Source: Antedon mediterranea (lineage: Eukaryota > Echinodermata > Crinoidea > Comatulida > Antedonidae). Taken from it: DNA of 64,000 nt. Shown one piece after another: positions 38,189 through 61,242 of this stretch (its first letter is position 1; each line of letters opens with the position of its first letter). The notes under the pieces were generated by a model. It was not told where the DNA came from and ran no database searches. It saw only the letters and a list, made by a program, of their open reading frames with translations. The position numbers and the translations under genes are program-made. The stretch lies in assembly GCF_964355755.1 (NCBI RefSeq), contig NC_092676.1, positions 29,337,871 through 29,401,870 on the forward strand, in the 5' to 3' direction.

Positions 38189-41100
38189 ATGTCCGATGCA
38201 GGTTTTTTTCGAGTTAGTATTTGTATATTTCTCCATTAAATGCTATAAATATAATTTGGTGAACTTACTAAAGAGTTCTTGAAAGTTTATTGCTAGGATT
38301 TTATTTATTTATTGCTTATATTAGCGATTAAAATAATACGTTTTCGGTATTGCAAAAATAGGCCGGCCAGATCAGCAGCTGCAGTCACTCTCACATACAT
38401 TTTACCGTTTAGGCCCAGGCCTACTACTAATTGATAGGCCTAGGCCCTAGTTTTAGGCTAGCTAGATGGGCTTGTATCGTGATACCAGCGCACAAAATTT
38501 GGCTTGCCCGGCTTAGATAATTTGCAAGCAGAGGAGAGATCCAGCAATAAATTCAATCTAGAATTGTCTGATTAAAATAATTATGAATAAGCCTAACTAG
38601 GCTAGGCTAGTAGTAGTAGGCTAGCCCCTCCCTGGCTGGGCCCTACCTGAGGCTCAGTCTCTAGGCTAGAGTCTATAGGCCTAGCTAGTTAGGCTAGGCC
38701 TATATTGATAAATCTATATTAATTAGGCTTTAGTACTAGTAGGCCTAGTCAGTAAGAATAAAAGAAAGGTAAAAAAGCTAAACCTAAAAATGTACATCAG
38801 TATTTTTGTGTATGATAAATAAACCTACCTTCTTATTGTATTTGTATTACAGGGTACAAGTGCAGACCAGGATAACCGGTTTGCAAACAAACAGAAAAAG
38901 CTAATGAAGCAAATGAAATTTTCCGACATTTTGGAAAAGAAAGTGAGCATTCTTTTTTATTTTTGACAAGAACTGCAATCAAATGATAATAAAACCAAAC
39001 AAGTGTTGTACAGTATTCGATTTGGAACTTCTGTAGTCAACATAGATTTGTTGAGTACTTTTTGCATTTGAACTGTAAATTGTAAACTGAGTGTGGTCAA
39101 CAGAAAATCATTTTAATAGAAAATGTTAAAAAATGCAAGCTTTTTTTGTTGACAACAATCTCAATGCTCAAAATACTTGGTTAAATAAGTACTCAACGGA
39201 AAAACTATACTCAACAGTAAACTCCCAATTGTATACAACAAATGTAATTAACACTTTTCAAAAACAACTATGACAAACAACGTACCATTTAGCTTATATG
39301 AGTTATAACATTACTAAATGTAAGCTGGTGCTGTGAATACAACCACAAGTGTTTCAAAGTTGACGATGGCATGTCAGTTAGTCAACTATTTTAGGGAGGT
39401 TGACACTGAATCTGTTTATTCGTTAATGAGTTAACTAGTTCTAATTCGGTATTTAAATTTTGTGTGTGTTCATTGACATTAAAATGATACATAGTTTTTT
39501 TGATATTTTAAAAACCTTTCATATCGATTTTAAGTCCATTAATCTTAAAAAAATGTCTTGGTTTTTTGTAATTTTGTTGTGAAGGTGCAAATGAGCAAGG
39601 TGAACCTGGATACAATCAAGCCATGGATCACAAAGAAAATTACAGAAATCTTAGATGTAGAAGATGAAGTATTAATTGGATTCATATTCAACCAACTTGA
39701 AGAAGAGGTGATTAAACTTTCATTAACAATTTATAGCTAACGTCGACCAAAGTTAAATTATTAACATAATTTAATAATAGTTTATAGCACTGATATTGTT
39801 GCAAAATTTTAAACAAGCAATGGATTTGATTTAGAAATCAAAATAAATACCATTTTCATTAACAAGATTTATATTCAAGTTTTGAATTTAGCAATCATTT
39901 CAGTATAGTATTTTTTATAATAAAGGAAGTGGATTTTTGTTTTAAAAAAAATTGATTTTTGAATTTATGCCTCAAAGATGAGTCAAGGTAAGATGTTAAT
40001 TAATACATGAATCATAAACATTTGTTCAAATTATGTAAAATTAAATTTGCTATCCTTGTACAGTACAGTATTCACAAGGTTTGCTATTAGCAACAGGTAA
40101 GTATGCTTTTTTTTAAAGTTCATTCTTCCAAAACCAAACTCTGAAATAAAGAAATTATCATAAGAAGTATTAGATATTCGACAAGGTTTATTGCAAATAT
40201 CATGCGCAACGCATTGTGGGAAGGGTTTGGCAGTGGCATTGTGAAAAAAAGGTAAAGGTATTTGCGATAAACTTTATGACCCCAACTTTCTTTTAAAGTG
40301 CATTATTCAACGAGACATTTGTCATGGCTGGTGTTTTAAGCATTGACTTTGTGCATAGATTAAAGTAAGTTTATTGTGTAAGTTCTGGTAGAAGCCTGAT
40401 TATTATGTGGTAAGTAGGATGACATAGACTTGTAAATAGTAAGTGGTGTAAAGTGCTCTACCTGTTTAAATAAAATCTGCTCGATACCTACAGTACAGAA
40501 TTTACTGTAGATTGCAGATGCAGTACTGTATGCACTGCAGAATTACTGTACATTATCTACTGCAGAATTACTGTACAGCCTGTACTGCAGAATTACTGTA
40601 CATCATCTACTGCAGAATTACTGTACAGCCTGTACTGCAGAATTACTGTACATTATCTACTGCAGAATTACTGTACAGCCTGTACTGCAGAATTACTGTA
40701 CATTATCTACTGCAGAATTACTGTACAGCCTGTACTGCAGAATTACTGTACATTATCTACTGCAGAATTACTGTACAGCCTGTACTGCAGAATTACTGTA
40801 CATTAACTACTGCAGAATTACTGTACATTATGTACTGCAGAATTACTGTACAGCCTGTACTGCAGAATTACCGTACATTATCTACTGCAGAATTACTGTA
40901 CTGCAGAATTACTGTACATTATGTACAGCAGAATTACTGTACAGCCTGTACTGCAGAATTACTGTACAGCCTGTACTGCAGAATTACTGTACAGCGTGTA
41001 CTGCAGAATTATTGTACATTATCTACTGCAGAATTACTGTACATTATCTACTGCAGAATTACTGTACATTATGTAGTGCAGAATTACTGTACATTATGTA

Positions 41101-44100
41101 CTGCAGAATTACTGTACAGCCTGTACTGCAGAATTACTGTACATTAACTACTGCAGAATTACTGTACAGCCTGTACTGCAGAATTACTGTACATTATCTA
41201 CTGCAGAATTACTGTACATTATGTACTGCAGAATTACTGTACAGCCTGTACTGCAGAATTACTGTACATTATATACTGCAGAATTACTGTACAGCCTGTA
41301 CTGCAGAATTACTGTACATTAACTACTGCAGAATTACTGTACAGCCTGTACTGCAGAATTACTGTACATTAACTACTGCAGAATTACTGTACAGCCTGTA
41401 CTGCAGAATTACTGTACATTGTCATTATGTAGTGCAGAATTACTGTACATTATCTACTGCAGAATTACTGTACTGCAGAATTACTGTACTGCAGAATTAC
41501 TGTACTGCAGAATTACTGTACATTAACTACTGCAGAATTACTGTACATTATGTAGTGCAGAATTACTGTACATTATCTACTGCAGAATTACTGTACTGCA
41601 GAATTACTGTACATTATGTACTGCAGAATTACTGTACAGCCTGCACTGTAGCTTGCGGGTACATTATGTACTGCAGAATTACTGTACTGCAGAATTACTG
41701 TACATTATGTACTGCAGAATTACTGTACAGCCTGTACTGTAGCTTGCGGGTACATTATGTACTGCAGAATTACTGTTTAGCTTTTACTGTAGGATTACTG
41801 TACTTGTTGCAGGTACAGTATATAAATATACTGTAAGTTGCAGGTATGTAAAACATACAGAATATATAATATTCAGGTTTAGGTAAGTAATTAACTCTTG
41901 TATTCTCAGTTACAAATTCTGGTATGTATGTTTCCATTACATTATACTGTACATAACAAAAATCACAATTTGACACAAATATCTTTTTGCTACTTAAGTT
42001 TTGTAGCAGAATTGGACCATCATTTTACAATTGGATTCAATTCAAAGAACATTAATTCACGTCCAAAAGATATTTCCTGTCTTTGACTATTTGTTTTATG
42101 GATACGATGGTAAGTTGATAACTATATTTAAAGTAACAAAAATCCACTTCTTCCAACGATGTATCAGTGCTTTCTAATTGTTAGGAATTAATTATGAATA
42201 TAAACTGTTTTCATCTTATAAAATGTTTTTTGGGAGAGAGAATATTTTTCCAGATTTTACCACTAAAGAGATTCACTGTTCTATTTTATTTGTAATGTCA
42301 ACATAAACAAATATTACCTGAAAAATGTTAGACAGAAAGAAAATTGTAATATGTATTTTTGCATTCAAATTTGGGTGACGATTTTTTAAAATTTTTGGCA
42401 GAAAGTACTAAACTAAAAAATGGCACTCTGGTGTAATAATCTTACCTGGTCTTTTCATGATAAATATGAAATAAAAATTTAAATCAATTATAAATTAAAT
42501 ACAAGTACATAAATGAAGTAAAACATATTTTAGAAATTAATTTTTACAAAAAAAGAAATTTCTAGAATAAATTGACGATATGCCACTGATTATAAATGTT
42601 TCATCTCCCGATTCAGATAAAATGTTAAAATTATCTCAGGGAAATCGTTGGCACACGTCGCGTCTTTACCAGAGGAATCACACGGCAGCAGCCGATTTAA
42701 CGTACGGATGTCCACGCAGTCGCTAGTCACAGGCATAAACGCTGAGTGGTTTGTACAATAAGTGAGGATACTAGTCTCAGTGCATGTAAATTGAGAAGGG
42801 TTAAATATCATACTGGTACTAGGTAGTGATCACTGGTAAATTTTAAAGGTTTAAATCAATGGTGATATAGTGATCATCGCTTTAAAAATTACGATAAATT
42901 TAAGGGTTTTTTTTTTTAAATAAAAATTGTAAGCAGGGATTGTGATCTGTAACTAATTCACTTACACCTGACAAAGTAAAGGCAAAATTTTAGAAATCGA
43001 TAGCTTAATGAAAAATAAATGTATAGATTTTGGTGGCAACTACTCAGAATTACTCCTTTCCCATATTATCAAACCTTATTTGTGAAAGAGTAGGTGATTA
43101 GGCCCAAAATTAATTAATTTTCAATGTTGAGTTTAAGGTGTGTTTGGCAATCATAAAATAGTTTTTGTATAAAAATAGTCAAATAAGGTTTGATAATCAG
43201 TCAGTCATAAAACTCTGATGATGTTGCAGAAAACAAGGTATGTCATTGACCCTGTGATTCTGACCTGTCATTAGGAAGATTAGTATACTATTGAAGTTTC
43301 ATAATTGAAGCTAAATGTTTTTCTCCATGATTTTTTAATTCACTTACTGTAGTAATCCTTTTTTTTTTTTTGTGTATAAAGAATAATCATTTTGGGAGAT
43401 AATTCTTATGTTGTGTAGCAGCAGTGTTTAATATCCATTTTTTTTATTTAGGTTCCAAATCCAAAAACAATGCAGATCAATTTGACTGGTTTTTTAAACG
43501 CGAAGAATGCCAATAAGTTCATGGAAGCGCTCTGGGAGCTGTTACTGAGTGCTCAGGATAACATTGCTGGTATTCCAGCTGCCTTCCTTGAGCAGAAGAA
43601 AGAAGAAATCAAGAAGCGGCAGGTAGGACTTTAATACTTTAAACTATGTGCTAATTGTTGATGTAAAGTTTGCGATACACTGGGTATATATTTCTGAAAA
43701 GAAGTGTTAGAGTGTCTTATCATTTCAATCAATATACTTTGATCTTCCTCGGATGTACTAATTTTTCTCAATATTTGAATAGTAAGTGGATATCTGCAAT
43801 TAATATTATGAAAGGTAAATAAGGACAAATATAACCACTCTCCATATAATAAAGATTTAAAATGATGGGGTATTTCCAAACAACTATCTGTTACGATCTT
43901 CAAATCTCTTCACTAAATGGGAAGAAATTCTATTTTAGTGTGATTTTCCGTTTTCTTTCAAGTATTGTTTGTTTTGTATATGGAATTTTTATTCTGAAAT
44001 AAAGTGATCAATCAATCAAACACAATGTAAATTTAAAGGTCTGTCTACACTATCAAACTAGTTTCACAAAAAAGTGTGATATACACAAATATGGTAGTGA

Positions 44101-47100: not shown

Positions 47101-50100
47101 AATAAAGAACCACTCTATATTAAAAACAAAATATCATGGCTTGTATGGCAGGTTTAGGTAGTGGTGCTCATACCATTGTGTTTTTGGTCATGATGAAGCC
47201 AAGATTAGAACCCAACCAGCACCAAGTGTGTCTCTGTCATAATAATTAAAAGATGAATATTTCATTTTCAGGTCAGATGCGGAGAGTGATGATGCAACCA
47301 CAAAACGTTCAAGAAACAGAAAGCGCAGAAGCTCCAGTTCAAGCTCCTCAAGTTCATCTCGTAGTTCATCCAGAGGTCGCGATAAACGTAAACATAGGAC
47401 AAAATCTAGGCAAGTACTGCTACTATTTCTGCCATGAATATATTTAGTTTACCAGTGCACCAATAAAAATCAAGTAGAGTTTTTTAAATATTTTATACAC
47501 ATCCACCAGTGAGTAACCCACCAATTACCGGATGAATACCATGCTTATAAACTAAGTCTCATTTGAGTATTAAGGAGTGAGGTTGAAAGAGTTACAACCC
47601 TGCACTAGGCCAGGATTGAACCCAGGACCTTGGGATTGGAAGGCAAACTTGGTGGTTTATGAGAATTATTAATTGGTTTATGATAATTAATGAGTAGATT
47701 TATTTGTTTAAACAGGTCACCTAGAAGGAGATCCTCAAGAAGATCTCCAAGACGATCACGTAGTCCGAGAAGATCTCGAAGTCCAAGACGATCACCACGT
47801 CGCAGAAAATCTCCTAGATTTCGAACTAGGACACCGCCAAGAAGGAGATCCCCTCGAAGATCTCCCCGCAGGCGTTCACCGCCAAGACGACGATCGCCAC
47901 CTAGAAGACGATCCCCATCTCCCAGAAGACGGTCTCCACACAGGAGGCCTTCACCATCACGAAGGCGTAGTCCCTCGCCTCGTAGACGGGTTCCTTCTCC
48001 AAGAAGGCGACCGTCTCCACGTCGTAGACCCGTTAGGAGCTCACCTGACAGCCCGTCACCAGTTAGAAGAAAGAAGAAATCACCACCAGTTAAAAAGTAA
48101 GCTAATCAGGCTCATGCTATATCTTGATTATATTTGTTCTATTTTTAGAATATAGTGACGCAATAAGAATTTCAAATTCTTTGCCCATATTTTCTGAGAG
48201 TAAACAATATATATAGCTGCAGTTGCGTGAGCAAATTTGAGTTGGTGTTTACCGACCAACATTTTGAGCTATAAAGTTGCATTGCACGCGACTACGAAGA
48301 TTTCAGTTTTGTGCAATATTTATTTATTACACTACTGTTTTCTTTTCAATAGAAGGTCAAGGTCATCTGACTCGGATTCCTCTGCATCTGGGTCCGAATC
48401 CTCGAGCAGTTCCCGATCTCCATCGCCAAAACCTAAGAAGTTTGTAGACCGGAAGCCATCACCAAGCTCCTCAGACGATTCCGATGCTCCTCCACAAACT
48501 ATAAAAACTGAACCAAAGTCCCCTTCACCACCTCCGGCTCATTATAAACAGAAGTTGGAGAAACAGAATGAGAAAGACAAAGTGGAAGCTAAGGTAAATT
48601 CTGGTTTTTTGTTTATATATTTAGGCAAATTGCCAAGGATAATCATAAGCGAATTCATTACTATCCCTTTCAAAAGACAAACATATACACAAGATGCTCT
48701 CTACTTAAACAAAGTCTTATTACGCGTCTTTGTGAGTGGAGTTATAAATTTCCATTGTCATTAGAAACAATCGGACACTGACAGGACTTCAACCCAGGAC
48801 CCTTGGATTGGTAGCCAAGCATCATAACCACCCCATTCTGATTTTTATGTCTAGACTATATATATGTGAATTTAGATATACTGTAGTATGCTCCGTTTTG
48901 TTTACAAATACAGTTAAATGAATCAAATTGTTTCTTAATTAGAGCATATTTCTAAACGCATTTCAGTTGTAAAATTATACTTGATGATAGTGCAGAACAA
49001 TTATAAAATATTACTGTGTTAATGGGTTTATGAAAAAAACCCACCTCTGTTACGAGTCTTTCACACCTACTCTGTCTCAATGTTTCGTTTTCATGGCGCG
49101 TCATGCAGCTTGTACCAACCTTTTTACTTGATATGGACTGGAGTCGTATGGCAGCAGGTGTGAAGGACCTTTAAAGCCTTGTCTACACTAACAAATTTTA
49201 TGTGTCGCAAACGTTTGATGTGCCAATATATGGTAGTGCGATGCTTAAATATGGTAGTGATATGACATCATCATGGGCACATCAGAATCTTTTTTTTTGA
49301 TAGTGAAGGCTTTACAAACTTATTTTAAGTTACCAATACAATTGAAGTAAAATAATTATATTTTAATTATATATTTATTGATAATACTGTATTGGGATTT
49401 CTTGTTTTATATTTAGTCCTGATATGATTTCATTTGGATCCTAATATTATAACAAAATTAAAAAATTCTCTTCTGTTTTATTTAGGCAAATGAAAGTGCT
49501 AAGAAAACTAAAGCACAAAGTGACAGCGATTCTAGTAGTACTGATGTTGAGAAAAAAAAGGCACCATCTCCCAAGAAGAGCAGATTCCCCCAAAGGGTCT
49601 ACAGACGCCATTCATCAAGCTCATCCTCCGACAGCGATGATGATGAAAAACCAAGTAAAAATCGTAAAGCCAGGAAGTCAAAATCATCAAGTCGATCTGC
49701 TTCACCGTCTAGACGAAAGAGACCTGGAGCCAGGGGGCATGACGCGTAAGTTAATTTGAGTAGTTTAAACTTGATACTGTATTTGTTTATTGTTTCTCTG
49801 CACAAACACAATGTGTCACAATAAAAAAACAAAGTTACATCAGTAAAAAAAGTGTGCAGAAGGAGGCTAAAAGGAGTTAGGAGACAGTAATAATACTTGT
49901 TTCTAAACAATTTTTGTTTGAAGTATTAATTTATATATTTTTTATTTAATAAATTCAGTAAGCCCCGATCAAGGAGTCCTAGAAAACGAAGTCCACGAAA
50001 AAGAACTCCAACTCCTCCAAGACGGCGCTATTCTCCAGTCAGAACAAGACATTCTCCCGTTTACAGACCTAGACGTCGTAGCCCAATGATACAACGTTAC

Positions 50101-52479
50101 AGGCGACCTGATCCATACTATAGAAGGAGTCCGTCTCATGATAGAAGTCGAAGGTATTCACCAGACAGACGCAGGAGGAGTCCCACCCCAGAAAAGCGCC
50201 GCAGAAGAAGTCCTTCCCCACAAAGAAGAGCATTTCAAGATAAAGATCGCCGTGAATCGCCTGAAAAAAGTAAGCGATCACCAAGTCCGAGGAGAAGATC
50301 AGGATCTGGGCGTAGAAGCAGCCCTCACCAACACAGATCTCCAGTAAAAAAGCAGAAGAGTCCTTCACCAGTGATCAGACATCAAAGACAATCCAGCAGT
50401 AGTCCGGAACCTCCACCAATTCAGAAAAAGCAACGTTCACCATCGGTTGAACTAGAAGAAACTAAATTACCAGAAAAAAAGAAGAAAGGTTCAGAAAAGA
50501 GGGCAGAGAAAGTAAAGAGGCAAAAAATGTCGTCACCAGAAGCAGATTCTAGCAGTCCAGATCAGAGGAATGATTCCGATATCGAGGATTTACAGACTCC
50601 AAGTAAAAAGAAGAAAAGGACAGCAGAAGGTGCTTCACCAAAGGTATGGTGATGATTAAATGCAAAATATGGCACTAACTGGCCATTATCTAAGTGGGTC
50701 TTTAAAGCTCAGGTACAGGCATGAATTTTAAATATAAAATTTGGTTAATTGTACATAAATCAAATATTTGTAACAGAAATCAAGATGAAAAAACATGAAT
50801 TTCCCCCTTAATATGGTCAAATACAAAATTTGGCAAAATTCTTCTATAAAAACCAGGAAGACTTTTTTTCAGTAGTTAGGCAGTTAACCTAATGTAATAA
50901 CATGTCTGGTGACTCCCTAGCAGGTGAAAAAAAGATGGTAGATATACGGTGGATAATTTTTGCTATAGCATGAAAATAAAAATCTGAAGTTGAATAAAAA
51001 TATCAGAAATGTAATATTTTTCATAGCTTTTTAAAATGCCTCTCTATTTACAAAATTTGTGTACAAAAGAATAGAGATTTTACTGTGTAATTTGAACTAT
51101 CCCCCCACTGATAAGAAAGTGCTTATTTTCAACAAGCTCGTGTAACACAAAGAAAATCCAAAAACTATGAAACATAGTAGAAACTATAGATCGATAATTA
51201 TTGGAATGTATGATCAATAGAAATTTTTGGCACCTGGCCTTTAAGTTCATGAAAGACTTCCTAATATGGGACCCTGAGTTTGCCAAAACAAGATTAGTAC
51301 ACCGATGTGCCAGATAATTGTCGTATTTGATTGGGACTTTTACCGTTGAGTACTTATTTAATGGAGTATTGTGAGCGTTGAGATTGTTCTTAACAGAAAA
51401 GCTTGCGTTTTCAAAGTTTTCTATTCGAATGACGTTCTGTTGAGCACAAATTTACAATTCGAATACAAAAAGTACTCAACAAATCTTTATGTTGACAACG
51501 AAAGTTCCAATTCGAATACAACAAGTGTTTCTATCTAAAAAAAATCTGGAATACTTTATTACCATTAAAAACATATACTACACCACTTTCCTGTGCTGTA
51601 AGTTGCATTGTATGCAATTGTTTGCTGAATTTATCAACTGCTTTCATTTATACTGCATGTCTATTTTTTCCTCTAAGGTTGCATCGGAAAAGAAGAAAGA
51701 TAAGAAAAAGCACAAGAAACATAAGAAACACAAAAAGCATAAAAAACACAAGAAGTCCAAGAAAGCGCAACTAGCAGGTGTAAGTATGAGTACATGAAAT
51801 TAGTATTACTCTACAGAAATGAATTATTTTTTATAGCCAACCTACTTCCTAAATATAACTTAACCTACCCTCTAAATAATCGCTACTATGAAAAAAAAAA
51901 CATTGATTAAAGATAACAATAGGGTTTAAACACAATTGCGGCAAAAAACCGTTATGCAACCTATTTCTCCAAGCTTACATAGCGCTCTCTATAATGCCTA
52001 AATCTCATGAATTATTCGTGATTTTTGCAAAAGATGTCGAAAATCAAATTGCATTGTACCTCGTCGTTAAAATGACTCATACGAGTACGCAATAGTGAAA
52101 CCCCTCCTTTGGGACACCACTATTAAGGTGTGAAACATTTAACACTACCGCCAACCCTCATTCAGACAACACTTTATTGGGCCCAGAAAATGTATTTAAC
52201 CTAATCCCTCCTTTCCCACCCACCCATTGTTTCATTATTATAACTGATGCATTTTTTTCCTGCCATTTGCCACCACGGTTGGAGTTGTTTTGATTGGCAA
52301 TAAAGAATCAGAATTTAACCACAGACCATGATTTTACATTTCTGTAGGATTCAGACAGTGATGGGGACAACTTAGAAAATTTGGAAATGCAACTGCGAGA
52401 AAAAGCGTTGCAATCGATGAAACGAGCAAGGGAACAGACAGCACCCGATGAGGAGGGTTCTTCATCATCATCGTCGTAA
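38189..52479 (+). CDS. SRRM1: SRRM1, serine/arginine repetitive matrix protein 1 (complete, 13 coding exons, 891 aa)
   Basis: Nuclear splicing co-activator that bridges SR proteins, the exon-junction complex and 3'-end processing. Exons: 38189-38212, 38853-38942, 39585-39707, 43452-43622, 44186-44322, 46749-46940, 47272-47409, 47716-48096, 48353-48593, 49486-49745, 49959-50643, 51678-51779, 52348-52479. MSDAGFFRGTSADQDNRF and the PWI domain (P51-W52-I53, then 'INLTGFLNAKNA' and 'NIAGIPAAFLEQKK') match the family almost residue for residue. Long RS/RSP and acidic-serine tracts fill about 250-800, then a (KKH)n lysine tract (about 820-842) and a conserved tail with 'LREKALQSMKRAREQ'. Human SRRM1 is about the same length. 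All introns are GT-AG except 47410-47715, which must use GC-AG. Intron 3 holds a 1.3-kb minisatellite and intron 5 a hAT-like element. No truncation. Confidence 0.97.
39001..39246. mobile_element. TIR element D, copy 1
   Basis: The ends 'agtgttgtacagtattcgat' and 'ccaattgtatacaaca' are inverted. The whole unit matches the reverse complement of 51317-51530 ('gttgagtactt', 'aagcttgc', 'attgagattgtt'). It lies in SRRM1 intron 2. Confidence 0.65.
40510..41800 (+). repeat. 25-bp minisatellite, about 50 copies
   Basis: The unit is 'ctgcagaattactgtacatt' plus ATCTA, alternating with a version ending in CAGCCTGTA. Some units shrink to a 16-bp core. Since 25 is not a multiple of 3, the same peptide repeats over 75 bp and long stop-free frames arise by chance. 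It lies entirely in SRRM1 intron 3 (39708-43451). CTGCAG and TACTGTA are small palindromes in each unit. Confidence 0.95.
43935..44022 (+). repeat. Retroposon 3'-end fragment with (ATCA)n tail
   Basis: Matches 14955-15080 over 'tagtgtgattttcc', 'tattgtttg' and 'ggaatttttattct' and ends in GATCAATCAATCAA. It lies in SRRM1 intron 4, immediately before a family A MITE. Confidence 0.5.
44033..44165. mobile_element. MITE family A copy 8, ending about 20 nt before SRRM1 exon 5
   Basis: The left arm TCTGTCTACACTATCAAACT is intact. The right arm stops after 'cataaagtttgatag', losing the outer 15 or so bases. The remaining 20 nt before the acceptor (GATGCAG at 44179-44185) are host sequence, so the element makes up the branch-point region of intron 4. 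Confidence 0.85.
44436..46602. mobile_element. hAT-like TIR element, about 2.2 kb, non-autonomous
   Basis: The left end CATGGCTGCAAATTAA and right end TTAATTTGCAGCCCTG are inverted and match the CAGGGCTGCAAATTAA style of hAT termini. The right side has 'ttggtagcac'-type motifs also typical of these elements. Flanks 'ataatca' and 'ataattca' may be a worn 8-bp duplication. The interior contains C-tracts at about 46345 and 46420. No transposase reading frame or BED finger is recognised. It lies in SRRM1 intron 5. Confidence 0.65.
47575..47658 (-). mobile_element. SINE S4 fragment
   Basis: Contains 'ccaggattgaacccaggacc' and 'ttgggattggaaggcaaac', the reverse complement of the S4 B-box and anticodon-arm region. 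It lies in SRRM1 intron 7, the GC-AG intron. A shorter relative is at 48780-48835 in intron 9. Confidence 0.6.
49054..49174. mobile_element. MITE family C copy 2
   Basis: 'gagtctttcacacc' at the left and 'ggtgtgaaggacctttaaa' at the right. 'tgtttcgttttca' is shared with the copy at 12.1 kb. It abuts a family A MITE on its right. SRRM1 intron 9. Confidence 0.65.
49172..49314. mobile_element. MITE family A copy 9
   Basis: TTAAAGCCTTGTCTACACTA at the left, 'tttgatagtgaaggcttta' at the right, with the usual 'atggtagtgatatgacatca' core. SRRM1 intron 9. Confidence 0.8.
50701..51245 (-). mobile_element. TTAA-ended element, copy 2 (545 bp)
   Basis: Reverse-complement copy of 35860-36462, with ends TTTAAAGCTCAGGTACAGGC and GGCACCTGGCCTTTAA. 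It is about 60 bp shorter because of internal deletions. It lies in SRRM1 intron 11, next to a TIR element D copy. Confidence 0.8.
51317..51531. mobile_element. TIR element D, copy 2
   Basis: The ends 'ttgtcgtatttgattgggac' and 'gttccaattcgaatacaaca' are inverted. The interior matches the inverted copy in SRRM1 intron 2. It lies in SRRM1 intron 11. Confidence 0.65.
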
Positions 52480-56493: not shown

Positions 56494-59400
56494 CTAACTC
56501 CATCCACCCGAGTACGAGTCTTTGTACCAGTAGTCATTGCCACCAAGTGGCTGTTGGGCAATTGGTTGGGCACCCCATTGTGCTCCTGTTCTACCCCTTT
56601 TGGGATCCCCAGATGGTTGGCCATCATACTTGCGCTTTCCTGAAACATTGGCACCACCTCGCCCACCTCTTCCTCCACCACGCCCCCTCCCTCTCTGACC
56701 TCCACGCCCACCTGCCCCTCGACCTCCACGTCCTCTCATTCCACCGCCTCCTCCACCACCCATACCTCCTCTACCCCCACGCATTCCACCACGTCCTCCT
56801 TCCATACCACCGCCTCTACCTCCACGACCTCGCCCATATCCACCACCACCGCCGCTGCCATATCCTCCCCCAAATTCATAACCCCGATCGTAGTAGTAGT
56901 CATCGGCGGCCCATGGATCATCATACCCACCACGGTAGTCGTTACCATAATACTCCTCGTATCCACCACCAAAATAGTTATAGCCTCCACCGCCGCCTCC
57001 TCCTCCACCACCACCCATGAAGGAAGAAGGTCTTCCACGCATTCCTTGGCCACCTCCTCGTCCTCTGAATGGAACAGGTCCATAATCAAAGAAGGGTTTT
57101 CTTCCATACCCTCTGCAAAACAAAAAAGATATTGTTTAAAATAATATACAGACGCATGTTTTTAAGGGCATGTAGCTTTAGCACCAGAGTTGTTTTGCCA
57201 CAAACATGTAATGATGCATGATTTTGTTTAGTTTAAAATACACTATCAAACTTTATGTGAAATGTGGTGTGCCCATATATGGTAGTGATATACCTAAATA
57301 AAGTAGTCATTATGACATCATCATGTCCATATATGGGCACAACACATGTTTATGTAATAACAAAGTTTGATAGTGTAACCTTTATATTTTGATAGTAATA
57401 GTAGTAATTATACATCATTGTGTCCATATATGGGCACATCACATGTTTACGTAATAACATAAAGTTTGATAGTGAAATCTTCATATATTATATTTTACCT
57501 TTGTTTGTCCATATGCATCTTCATCTGCCTTTCTTTCTTTTTGTCTTTATCCTGAGGTGGTTTAGCAAGTGACACTTCTAAGGTGCTGCCTTCAAATGTA
57601 TTATTGTTCATTTCATTAATGGCTTTTTCAGCTGAATCACGGTCTTTGTAATGCACAAAACAGTAATCTTTTATTTTCTTGACGCGCTCAATATCGCCAA
57701 ATTCTTTAAACTTTTCTTGGATCCTTTCCTCGGAGGCTTCAGCAGTTAAGTTCCTGACATAGACAACTTTAACCTACAAAGATAAAATATAGAAAATGTT
57801 TAGGTTAATAATTTTTAATATAGCAGCTATTTTAGGTGATCTGAAAGATTAGATAAGCAAAACACAGGCCTTGTCTTTTAAAAATTATAGGTGTGCTACA
57901 AATTGCACTCCTCAATACATTCTGCTGTAGGTCTGCTGTTTGTATTTTGGTGTGTAGATGTTTACCAAAATTAAGCGTGTTGTAAATCGCACTCCTCAGG
58001 GGCAGTTTAGGAGTGTGTTAGGTGAGTGATCGCGCTCACTCAAAAGACTGATAACAAAATATCTTGAATATACTGACCTTTGACATTGTTTCTTCATCAG
58101 GTTGGGGTTGTGGGTCGGCCCAATCAACTGTGATGTCCACGCCATTCCAAACCTTAACACGCCCTGTTGAAAGCTTCCTCTTGGCAGTTGACGCCGCTTG
58201 GTGGGTTTCGTATTCAAGGAAAGCAAATCCACGGTTTTTCTTTCGATCTTCCGTCAGATATATTACAACTTCTCGTAAACCAGCTATGTTAAAAACAAAA
58301 TGTGATTATTTACCAATTATGTAACAATATACGATAGGTTTGGAAGATTTGCAGCACAGGTTTCAACAACGCAACTTGTTGAAACCAGCTTCATCAGAAA
58401 TTATTTATTAAACTTGTCTTAACCTCAAGAATAGGTCATTATTTTTACCTGGTAAACAAATTCCAACTGACTTTGACAACAAAATGACTTACGTGCATGT
58501 TTTTCAAATTCTTCCTTGATCTCCGCCTCAGTCTTATTCTTAGGAATTGACCCTACGTACAGTGTTACATTCGGTGTCGAATGTTTCACACACATAGCCT
58601 TGTTCCCCTTTAATACATGATCATTTAGCTGGGAAAATAGTACCAAATCACAAACGTAATTCTTTGTTCCAATATTACCCCAAAACATACTAAATCATAC
58701 AACAATTTTGACTAATGTTCAAGATTTTCATTATCGTGATTGCAAAATCTGATAAGCAAAAGAACAATAGCCTTGTCCAGAATAGATTTAGTACATTTTC
58801 TTGGGGGTTTGTTCACATCATATTAAACTTACGTGCATGTTGGCTAAACTCCTCCATAATATCTTCCCTTGTCTTGGATTTTGGTATGGGTGCAACATAC
58901 AACTTGCAATTAGCCACCGATCGAGTGACACCAATCTTTCGATTCGGCTGGATTTCCAAGTCGTTAAGCTGTTAAGTTAAGTTTGTAGAATTTTGTGTTT
59001 TTGTTTTTTTTGGTCCGAATACATACAATGGCCAATTATGGAATATAACATTCATTAAAATTTTGACTAGCGGTGACATACAAATCAGATATGCATTAGG
59101 AGATGGACTGCAGTGCAATATGTGAAAATCCGAAGCACACCCCAAAAATTCTACGGTAACAAGATTTTAGCCAACTGCATAAGATGTAAGAAAAACACTG
59201 ATATCAGACTACCTGCACTCAAATTACCTCTTCACTTCTAAAACATTAGTCAAATCATTAAAATTAGTTTCTTAACACCCTTAGACACTATTTTTTTAAT
59301 TGAAGGAGATGGCTTAAAGTGCAGATTAGCCTGATTTTAAAGCATTCAACAGACTTGCAAGCATGCAAAAACAAAAGAAAACATGCAAGATTGTTAACAG

Positions 59401-61242
59401 GTTTATAAAGCTCTGTCAACACTATTAAACTAGTTTACAAACAAAAAGTGTGATAAATATGGTAGTGATATGACATCACCTCCATATATGAGCATATCAC
59501 ATTTTTTGTCACATGAAGTTTGATAGTGTGGACAGAGCTTTAGAAAGTAGATGGATATAATTATCCTAAACAAAAACAAAATCGTGCATTTAGAATATTA
59601 CAGCCAAAACAATATTGGAATAATTCTTGCACATTTAAAGTTTATTTACAATGTATATAAATAGGGTGGATTCAAACCTATTAGACAACAATTTTACCAC
59701 TTTCAAAGGGTACTTGTACAATTAATATGCAATCCCAAAACCTATTTCAGAAGACAACACCCAAGTATTAATTGTGAACACTCCCACTTTGAGGAAACGC
59801 CTTAATATTTATTTTCAAAGACATACCTCAGACACAGCTTTCTTTGCACCATCTTTGTCACAGAAAGATACAAAAGCGTAACCTCTGTTGTTTTGCGTGT
59901 TTGGATCAATCATTAACCTCATGTCCCAGATTCTGCCGCATTTCTCAAACAACGGGACAAGATCATACTCAAAAACATCTCGTGGAAGCTTACCAACAAA
60001 TAACTGCGAAAACAAAATAATTCTGTAGTTTTAAAATATATCTTATTATTAAACAGGATGAATAACTCAAATCATAGATCATACTCAAAAACATCCTGTG
60101 AAAGTTTACCAACGAATAATTGAAAACAAAATAATAGTTCGAAAATCTATTGCAATATTAACAAGGATGAAAAACCAGAGAAAAGATAAGAGTTAAAACG
60201 AATTGTAAAAACTGGAGACAAAGAAACAAAGACCATGACAGAACTATGACAATCAAGAGATAAAGATTACAATGACAGATGCCAGCAAGAACGACAAAAG
60301 AAAACAATTGATAATTAGATAGAATTGAATAATAGCAACAAAGAAATCAAAATAATGAAGTCAGCAACAAAGCAAAGCTTTTGCATATGTTTAAGTACCT
60401 CTGTGTTGGCTGGAGCTGGTCCTTCCCAGTCAGGTGGTGGCCCTCCATATTTTCGTTGTCCCGTCGTTACATCTAGTGAATAACCCGTACTGGCTAATAA
60501 TTCCTGTAAAATACAAATGTTTTTGTTACGTAACCACAGATGTAAGTAGGTCATATCATTTGAAGACTGAACTTAAATAACCGAGTACAAAAGCGATTGT
60601 GAGGCTGTGTGTTTAAATTATACATTCACAAAATGTACAGAACATAAATTAAATTAGTTTATGTACCTGAACTTTAGCTTCATCTGGACCCATTTTGTCG
60701 GCTCCGGATTGCGCCCCTTTCATTTTTCGTTGCCTGTATGTTTTGATGACACCACAAAGGAATGCACTTTTATTATTTACATGAGTTAAGTCACTGTCTG
60801 AAAACTGTTTTAAAACACCAACAGCATCTGTTTCGTTTAGTTCTCTAAGAGCGTCTAATGCACGTTCATCAAGTTCTTCCTCTTGTAGCATCCCTGCAAG
60901 AAAAATTAATTTTATTTCTAAATTGAAGTGATTTAATAATCAATTAGAATTAGTTATGGCATAATTAATACAAAGAATAGCGGGCTTTCATTTTAAGAGG
61001 ATTGTTTTTCTAAATTGGGAAATGTCTGGTAATATAATGCCATAAGTACCATTGGAAAAGAATTTGTCCATCTCCTCTGCAACTTTCTGGGGGTAACCCA
61101 TCCCAAGAAATTTATCATAGTTCTCTGTTTTTGCTACTGGGTCTTCAGGTTCTTGTGATTCCTGCGTCTCCATTGGTTCTTCTTGTTCTGCTACTTCATC
61201 TACATTTTCCTCCTTGACGACATCTCCATTTGTTTCAGACAT
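56494..61242 (-). CDS. SYNCRIP: hnRNP Q/R (SYNCRIP-like) RNA-binding protein (complete, 645 aa per isoform)
   Basis: Pre-mRNA and mRNA-binding protein of the hnRNP Q/R family, acting in splicing, mRNA transport and stability. Minus-strand exons: 61242-61050, 60893-60667, 60503-60399, 60003-59827, one of 58968-58833 or 58628-58493, 58283-58078, 57773-57499, 57112-56494. The acidic N-terminal domain (residues 1 to about 170) is followed by three RRMs: RRM1 with RNP2 LFVGKL (176-181) and RNP1 RGYAFVSF (215-222); RRM2 with LYVAPI or LYVGSI and RNP1 RGFAFLEY (297-304); RRM3 with VYVRNL (352-357) and KDYCFVHY (383-390). A glycine/arginine/tyrosine-rich RGG tail (about 440-645) ends in YSGGWS. Length and domain order match vertebrate SYNCRIP and hnRNP R. 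A single invertebrate gene may be equally related to both, so the symbol is a family label. Confidence 0.96.
57236..57478. mobile_element. MITE family A copy 10 plus partial duplicate
   Basis: A copy with trimmed ends (ACACTATCAAACTTTATG to AAAGTTTGATAGTGTAAC) is followed at about 57405-57476 by a second right half ('gtccatatatgggcacatca' to 'agtttgatagtg'). It is in hnRNP Q/R intron 7, ending about 20 nt past exon 7's donor. Confidence 0.8.
58493..58628 (-). CDS. hnRNP Q/R alternative exon 5b
   Basis: A 136-nt exon encoding LNDHVLKGNKAMCVKHSTPN and then TLYVGSIPKNKTEAEIKEEF. It has the same start phase (0), end phase (1), length and domain position as the exon at 58833-58968, with 21 of 45 residues identical. 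It keeps the RRM2 RNP2 (LYVGSI) but has a changed linker where the family usually reads 'GV..SVAN'. Acceptor TTTTCCCAG and donor GTAAGT are sound. Splicing it after exon 5a would give CCT AAA TGA, an immediate stop. Confidence 0.88.
58833..58968 (-). CDS. hnRNP Q/R alternative exon 5a (canonical version)
   Basis: A 136-nt exon encoding LNDLEIQPNRKIGVTRSVAN, then KLYVAPIPKSKTREDIMEEF. It has the family-typical linker (EI.P.K.IGV..SVAN) and RRM2 start. Acceptor AACTTAACAG is weak in pyrimidines; donor GTAAGT is strong. It is separated from exon 5b by a 204-nt intron. Confidence 0.9.
59405..59545. mobile_element. MITE family A copy 11
   Basis: TAAAGCTCTGTCAACACTAT and AGTTTGATAGTGTGGACAGA, then GCTTTA, with a shortened centre. 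It lies in the hnRNP Q/R intron between exon 4 and exon 5a. Confidence 0.85.
60078..60136 (-). pseudogene. Degenerate duplicate of hnRNP Q/R exon 4 start
   Basis: On the minus strand this reads LFVGKLSQDVFEYD-like codons preceded by the same 'attttgttttc' as the true exon. It is about 85-90% identical to 59961-60020 at a distance of about 118 bp. The acceptor AG of the true exon ('ttttcgcag') is replaced by 'ttttcaatt', so this copy cannot splice, and homology stops after the first 14 or so codons. Confidence 0.75.

Follow-up and report, generated by a model that had tools for sequence, protein, structure and literature searches.

The hnRNP Q/R gene

The window analysed here, a stretch of 64,000 nucleotides from the genome of the crinoid Antedon mediterranea (contig NC_092676.1), carries on its minus strand, from 61242 to 56494, a gene that on the evidence of its sequence is a genuine hnRNP Q/R orthologue; the borders were taken from the sequence and checked by joining the exons. 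An earlier sequence-only reading had named the gene as hnRNP Q/R, and this identification was borne out by profile searches. Against the NCBIfam profile TIGR01648 ("hnRNP-R, Q"), with its curated cut-off of 317.85 bits, the two proteins that the gene could encode, isoform A and isoform B, score 427.7 and 406.5 bits, respectively. The acidic domain PF18360 (hnRNP_Q_AcD, NURR) is present at 88.3 and 88.4 bits in the two isoforms (cut-off 26), and three RRM_1 stretches were found in each. To our knowledge, the N-terminal acidic (NURR) domain is absent from A1CF, RBM47 and DND1.

All coding exons lie on the minus strand, and an upstream non-coding first exon is likely. Exon E2 (61050-61242) contains the start codon and the first part of the acidic domain, E3 (60667-60893) the remainder of that domain, and E4 (60399-60503) an extension preceding RRM1. 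RRM1 is encoded as far as alpha2 by E5 (59827-60003), which ends in phase 0 and is followed by intron 5 (58969-59826, 858 nt). Then come two consecutive 136-nt exons running from phase 0 to phase 1, exon A (58833-58968; LNDLEIQPNRKIGVTRSVANCKLYVAPIPKSKTREDIMEEFSQHA) and exon B (58493-58628; LNDHVLKGNKAMCVKHSTPNVTLYVGSIPKNKTEAEIKEEFEKHA), which are separated by the A-B intron (58629-58832, 204 nt, GT-AG) and followed by another GT-AG intron of 209 nt (58284-58492). E7 (58078-58283) starts in phase 1 and encodes the rest of RRM2, E8 (57499-57773) encodes RRM3, and E9 (56494-57112) supplies a C-terminus that is Gly/Arg-rich by reading, along with the stop codon. Intron 4 also holds a decaying partial copy of the start of E5 and its 3' splice region (60135-60076, minus strand), in which 54 of 62 nt are identical, the acceptor AG is lost, and 13 of 15 residues are alike before a stop codon is reached; by this pattern it is a failed exon duplication within the hnRNP Q/R gene.

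A candidate pair of mutually exclusive exons

The peptides encoded by A and B align over 45 residues without gaps, with 21 identical. This similarity is not due to chance, since the BLOSUM62 sum of the alignment is 101, against a mean of -35 (SD 13) and a maximum of 27 for 100,000 shuffled versions of B. Both exons are bordered by ag upstream and gt downstream, and they have a common donor, CAC/gtaagt. When the exons were joined, a full protein was obtained from single inclusion only, with a length of 645 aa for isoform A and for isoform B alike. With both exons included, the frame reads CCT AAA TGA (...HAPK-stop) and ends after 281 residues, at nt 846 of a joined coding sequence in which the last junction lies at nt 1455. 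With both skipped, the frame is broken and ends after 240 residues (...SELVYEKL-stop), at nt 723, where the last junction lies at nt 1183. It is an established rule that a stop codon upstream of the last junction is expected to trigger nonsense-mediated decay (NMD), and since both stops are so placed, the both-exon and neither-exon transcripts are predicted NMD targets. The sequence-only reading had already given the coordinates, lengths, phases and 21/45 identity of the pair, as well as the TGA codon on double inclusion, the frame break on double skipping and the restriction of full protein to single inclusion, and each of these was reproduced. We thus have adjacent homologous exons of equal phase that yield no full protein when both are included or both are skipped, as is looked for in mutually exclusive exons, and we think it probable that A and B constitute a mutually exclusive, tandem-duplicated coding exon pair in this hnRNP Q/R orthologue.

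In genome searches, A and B each had three matches, namely A, B and one paralogue at C7:25413969; no third copy of the exon was found in these searches, which weak matches may escape, or in the gene region. A search with exon E8 in collections of genome and viral contigs that contain no animal genomes confirmed no relative. The paralogue (G000:C7:25413630-25414328), which we take to be an hnRNP-R-like family member of the A1CF/RBM46/RBM47 type, has the homologous residues, but unlike in A/B they lie inside one long open frame in which a second copy was not found.

The swapped residues and RNA contact

Alignment with solved relatives shows that the exon covers the end of RRM1 (the alpha2-beta4 loop and beta4), the short linker, and beta1-alpha1 of RRM2, where the names of the structural elements follow knowledge of the fold and PMC9537309. 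It had been proposed that the linker and RRM2 beta1 change while the RRM cores persist. Both of these elements are indeed swapped, but the alignment adds the RRM1 alpha2-beta4 loop, RRM1 beta4 and RRM2 alpha1 to the list, and the persistence of the cores has to be given up, as RRM1 beta4, RRM2 beta1 (with RNP2) and alpha1 are parts of both cores. In three blocks delimited by eye, A and B are identical at 6/17 positions (residues 1-17), 1/4 (18-21) and 14/24 (22-45), so that the end of RRM1 and the linker are the most altered, while the start of RRM2 retains LYV..IPK.KT. Isoform A has the RRM1 end T-R-S-V, which is more hnRNP R-like, and an unusual RNP2, LYVAPIP; isoform B has the changed RRM1 end K-H-S-T and an RNP2, LYVGSIP, resembling that of hnRNP Q.

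In the structure of DND1 with RNA, contacts come from L130 and C132 in beta4 and from R133, S134, T135 and K137 in the linker (PMC9537309). The residues aligned with these six in A/B are G/C, T/K, R/H, S/S, V/T and N/N, respectively. That four of the six RNA-contacting positions within the exon differ between A and B makes two RNA-binding specificities from one gene plausible. By analogy with DND1, RRM1 beta4 and the linker would belong to the RNA-reading surface, so RNA affinity or sequence preference is what would most likely be tuned, and we would expect such an alteration to act chiefly through the end of RRM1 and the linker. Three points argue against this RNA-binding part of the proposal: the linker sequence TEK is peculiar to DND1 within its family and the RRM2 sheet of DND1 faces away from the RNA (PMC9537309), and only one high-confidence RNA-linked peptide of Syncrip lies in RRM2 (PMC5827114).

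The explanation that we prefer can be stated as follows. The two proteins would have in common the acidic domain, most of RRM1 and RRM2, RRM3 and the RGG tail. The differences between them would lie in RRM1 beta4, in the short linker that connects RRM1 to RRM2, and in RRM2 beta1-alpha1. Besides RNA preference, the switch would most likely also tune the relative set of RRM1 and RRM2. In its fullest and more tentative form, to which we give somewhat less than an even chance, the switch would rewire the seam at which RRM1 and RRM2 read RNA, creating two readers with different preferred motifs, depending on tissue or stage.

Possible means of enforcing single use

Under the preferred explanation, transcripts with both exons or neither would be removed by NMD, and the copy would be chosen by a regulator or by splice-site competition; we can guess that the A:B ratio may be set by a regulator or by looping-out of A. 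Steric exclusion by a short intron is unlikely, as the A-B intron measures 204 nt, and there is no sign of U2/U12 incompatibility, with gtaagt (U2 type) at both donors. A structural cause of exclusion is an optional feature of mutually exclusive exons; the length of this intron, the matching donors and the want of strong docking-selector pairing count against the preferred explanation. The 40 nt upstream of acceptor A are A-rich, with a pyrimidine fraction of 0.35, where the remaining seven introns have 0.53-0.65; the 20 nt closest to the acceptor, at 0.55, fall within the range of the others (0.50-0.80). A weak acceptor A is therefore only suggested, because the 40-nt measure stands apart and the 20-nt measure does not.

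The possibility that base-pairing between introns selects the exon, also raised by the sequence-only reading, was examined by duplex energy and by a search for inverted repeats. Docking-selector pairing was assessed by duplex energy against 60 shuffles that preserved composition only, and no comparison of four stood out: a duplex as strong was reached in 4/60 shuffles when the A-B intron was paired with the last 400 nt of intron 5 and in 10/60 when it was paired with all of intron 5; for the intron after B, the figures were 38/60 against intron 5 and 32/60 against the A-B intron. What does favour pairing is a 13-nt perfect complement on the minus strand between intron 5 (59254-59242) and the A-B intron (58719-58707), whose 18-nt arms form a duplex of -18.0; pairing of these arms would loop out A and favour B, thereby acting as a simple selector. 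A run as long occurred in 4/150 dinucleotide shuffles of that intron pair and in 6/150 over three pairs, a marginal result noticed post hoc, which we treat as a weak lead. No comparable run favouring A was found, the longest between the A-B intron and the intron after B being 7 nt, which was matched by 150/150 shuffles. That pairing of this kind picks the exon, as a particular version of the preferred explanation, thus seems unlikely to us.

Other features of these introns can be listed briefly. Inverted repeats in 58284-59826 amount to four pairs, a MITE-like palindrome and three pairs of 14-18 nt; the palindrome and one pair lie within intron 5, one pair lies within the A-B intron, and one, which includes the 13-nt complement, joins intron 5 and the A-B intron. 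The palindrome (59402-59546) is a repeat with many genome copies: a first look gave 4,587 candidates, and among 40 scored, 39 were other copies, 82-87% identical in the orientation of the query. By eye, a similar palindrome appears to be present in intron 8 near 57460-57230. Between the introns following A and B no homology was seen, the longest exact match being 10 bases. Upstream of A, intron 5 contains two TGCATG motifs 20 nt apart (59387-59362, minus strand), TGCATG being the RBFOX motif, and none of the remaining seven introns that separate coding exons contains GCATG; the pair is a lead only as a regulator site.

Age and constraint of the two copies

The identity of A and B by codon position is 29/45, 29/45 and 14/45 for positions 1, 2 and 3, so that positions 1 and 2 taken together (58/90) are better conserved than position 3 (14/45; Fisher p 0.0004). 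We compared this with a drift simulation, crude in that it used single-site changes, one drifting copy and an intron-like base composition, in which that copy was mutated neutrally until its third positions had diverged to the observed extent (n = 20,000). An open frame was retained in 675/20,000 runs, the splice dinucleotides in 303/20,000 and both in 8/20,000, while the BLOSUM sum of 101 was reached in 0/20,000, the best being 74. The codon-position pattern and the simulation together indicate that A and B split long ago and have been under protein selection for much of that time, with B as an old, protein-constrained copy. Such a pair is probably functional, which does not in itself prove present-day use of both copies.

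Isoform B also appears to be a competent part of the RRMs, as its RRM_1 score (160.1 bits) is above that of isoform A (152.4 bits). With the family profile TIGR01648, isoform B falls 21 bits below isoform A, and this counts against the explanation that we prefer. Among relatives, hnRNP Q (6kor, 14/25 each), fly Syp (6es4, 6/19 each), 2dis (12/26 each) and DND1 (11/45 each) do not distinguish A from B in nearness, and A is closer than B to hnRNP R (9ejy, 9/20 vs 4/20) and to the paralogue in the same genome (21/45 vs 17/45). These residues are too few to support a tree by which A and B might be dated.

These data bear on two other explanations of the pair. In the first, only one copy would be the regular exon, with the other acting mainly as a poison exon, whereby joining both lowers the amount of protein via NMD. 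The stop 281 residues into the double-inclusion product, upstream of the last junction, would serve this purpose, and NMD autoregulation has been described for RNA-binding proteins (PMC6547761). However, a poison exon needs no open, RRM-like frame of 45 residues in the correct phase, the pattern of substitution indicates protein constraint, and isoform B is full-length and above the family cut-off; we therefore regard a mainly poison role as improbable. In the second, one of the exons is a relic in decay that no transcript includes, for which the partial E5 copy in the same gene sets a precedent, but this is very improbable given that frame, splice dinucleotides and RRM features were kept while the third positions diverged, and that none of the 20,000 crude neutral simulations matched.

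Relation to known exon switches

The nearest parallel to the A/B pair is the splicing factor U2AF1 of vertebrates, whose duplicated exons Ab and 3 (U2AF35a/b) code for a stretch of an RRM-like domain with its RNP2 motif; a transcript that has both of them, or lacks both, carries stop codons and is reduced by NMD (PMC5224494). Tandem duplication, an RNP2-bearing RRM segment and stops in the both and neither forms are thus shared with A/B. The protein family is different, the U2AF1 exons differ at seven residues as against 24/45 here, and the A/B region (58284-59826) has four pairs of inverted repeats that give no hint of being active.

Within the family itself, vertebrate hnRNP Q/SYNCRIP, hnRNP R and fly Syp have the same acidic (NURR) domain and RRMs (PMC5827114 and PMC6125337), and the RGG box found here is as in human Q3 and R1. 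The vertebrate isoforms described in the portions of these and other papers that could be consulted differ elsewhere, or by other means, than A and B: human hnRNP Q2 is without residues 302-336 (PMC6125337) or, in another account, has a change at "exon 7" that leaves RRM2 shortened (PMC11230530), Q1 differs from the others in its C-terminus, and the nine zebrafish syncrip transcripts are of the A5SS, A3SS, SE and AFL types, not mutually exclusive exons (PMC9304896). In fly, the splicing of Syp was altered on depletion of 11 RNA-binding proteins (PMC4617972). Read-based criteria for mutually exclusive exons are given in PMC5740500, where 60% of human clusters contain exons with a length not divisible by three; SYNCRIP is absent from the main text of that paper and HNRNP occurs in its reference list only, and HNRNP, SYNCRIP, A1CF and RBM47 are all absent from the main text of PMC9741552. 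A search over open-access literature, with supplements and most subscription papers outside its reach, showed no report of this exon pair in SYNCRIP or HNRNPR among the titles and starts of abstracts listed. A/B would thus be a further case of an already known type of splicing switch, in a gene for which no earlier report was found; this does not establish its absence from print.

Familiar examples of mutually exclusive exons serve to tune channels and muscle proteins. If the preferred explanation is true, the A/B pair would tune an ancient and general RNA-binding regulator at the place where the DND1 structure shows tandem RRMs holding RNA, and would provide, beside U2AF1, another splicing-related protein with an RNP2-bearing segment swapped by NMD-guarded exons. 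The 24 substitutions between A and B are apparently compatible with the fold, and so they offer a natural set for asking which residues set the RNA preference of hnRNP Q/R.

The adjoining gene

An SRRM1-like gene adjoins the hnRNP Q/R gene on the plus strand. Of the genome's three PWI-domain matches, the best two lie in it, at 39609-39707 and 43449-43562, and Arg/Ser-rich frames occur within 47690-50652. HNRNPR and SRRM1 are likewise close together on human chromosome 1. At 40512-41836 on the plus strand, a short repeat (YCRITVHYLLQNYCT...), which is probably tandem, makes up long frames that overlap; because these frames separate one half of the PWI match from the other, they likely lie in an intron of the SRRM1-like gene.
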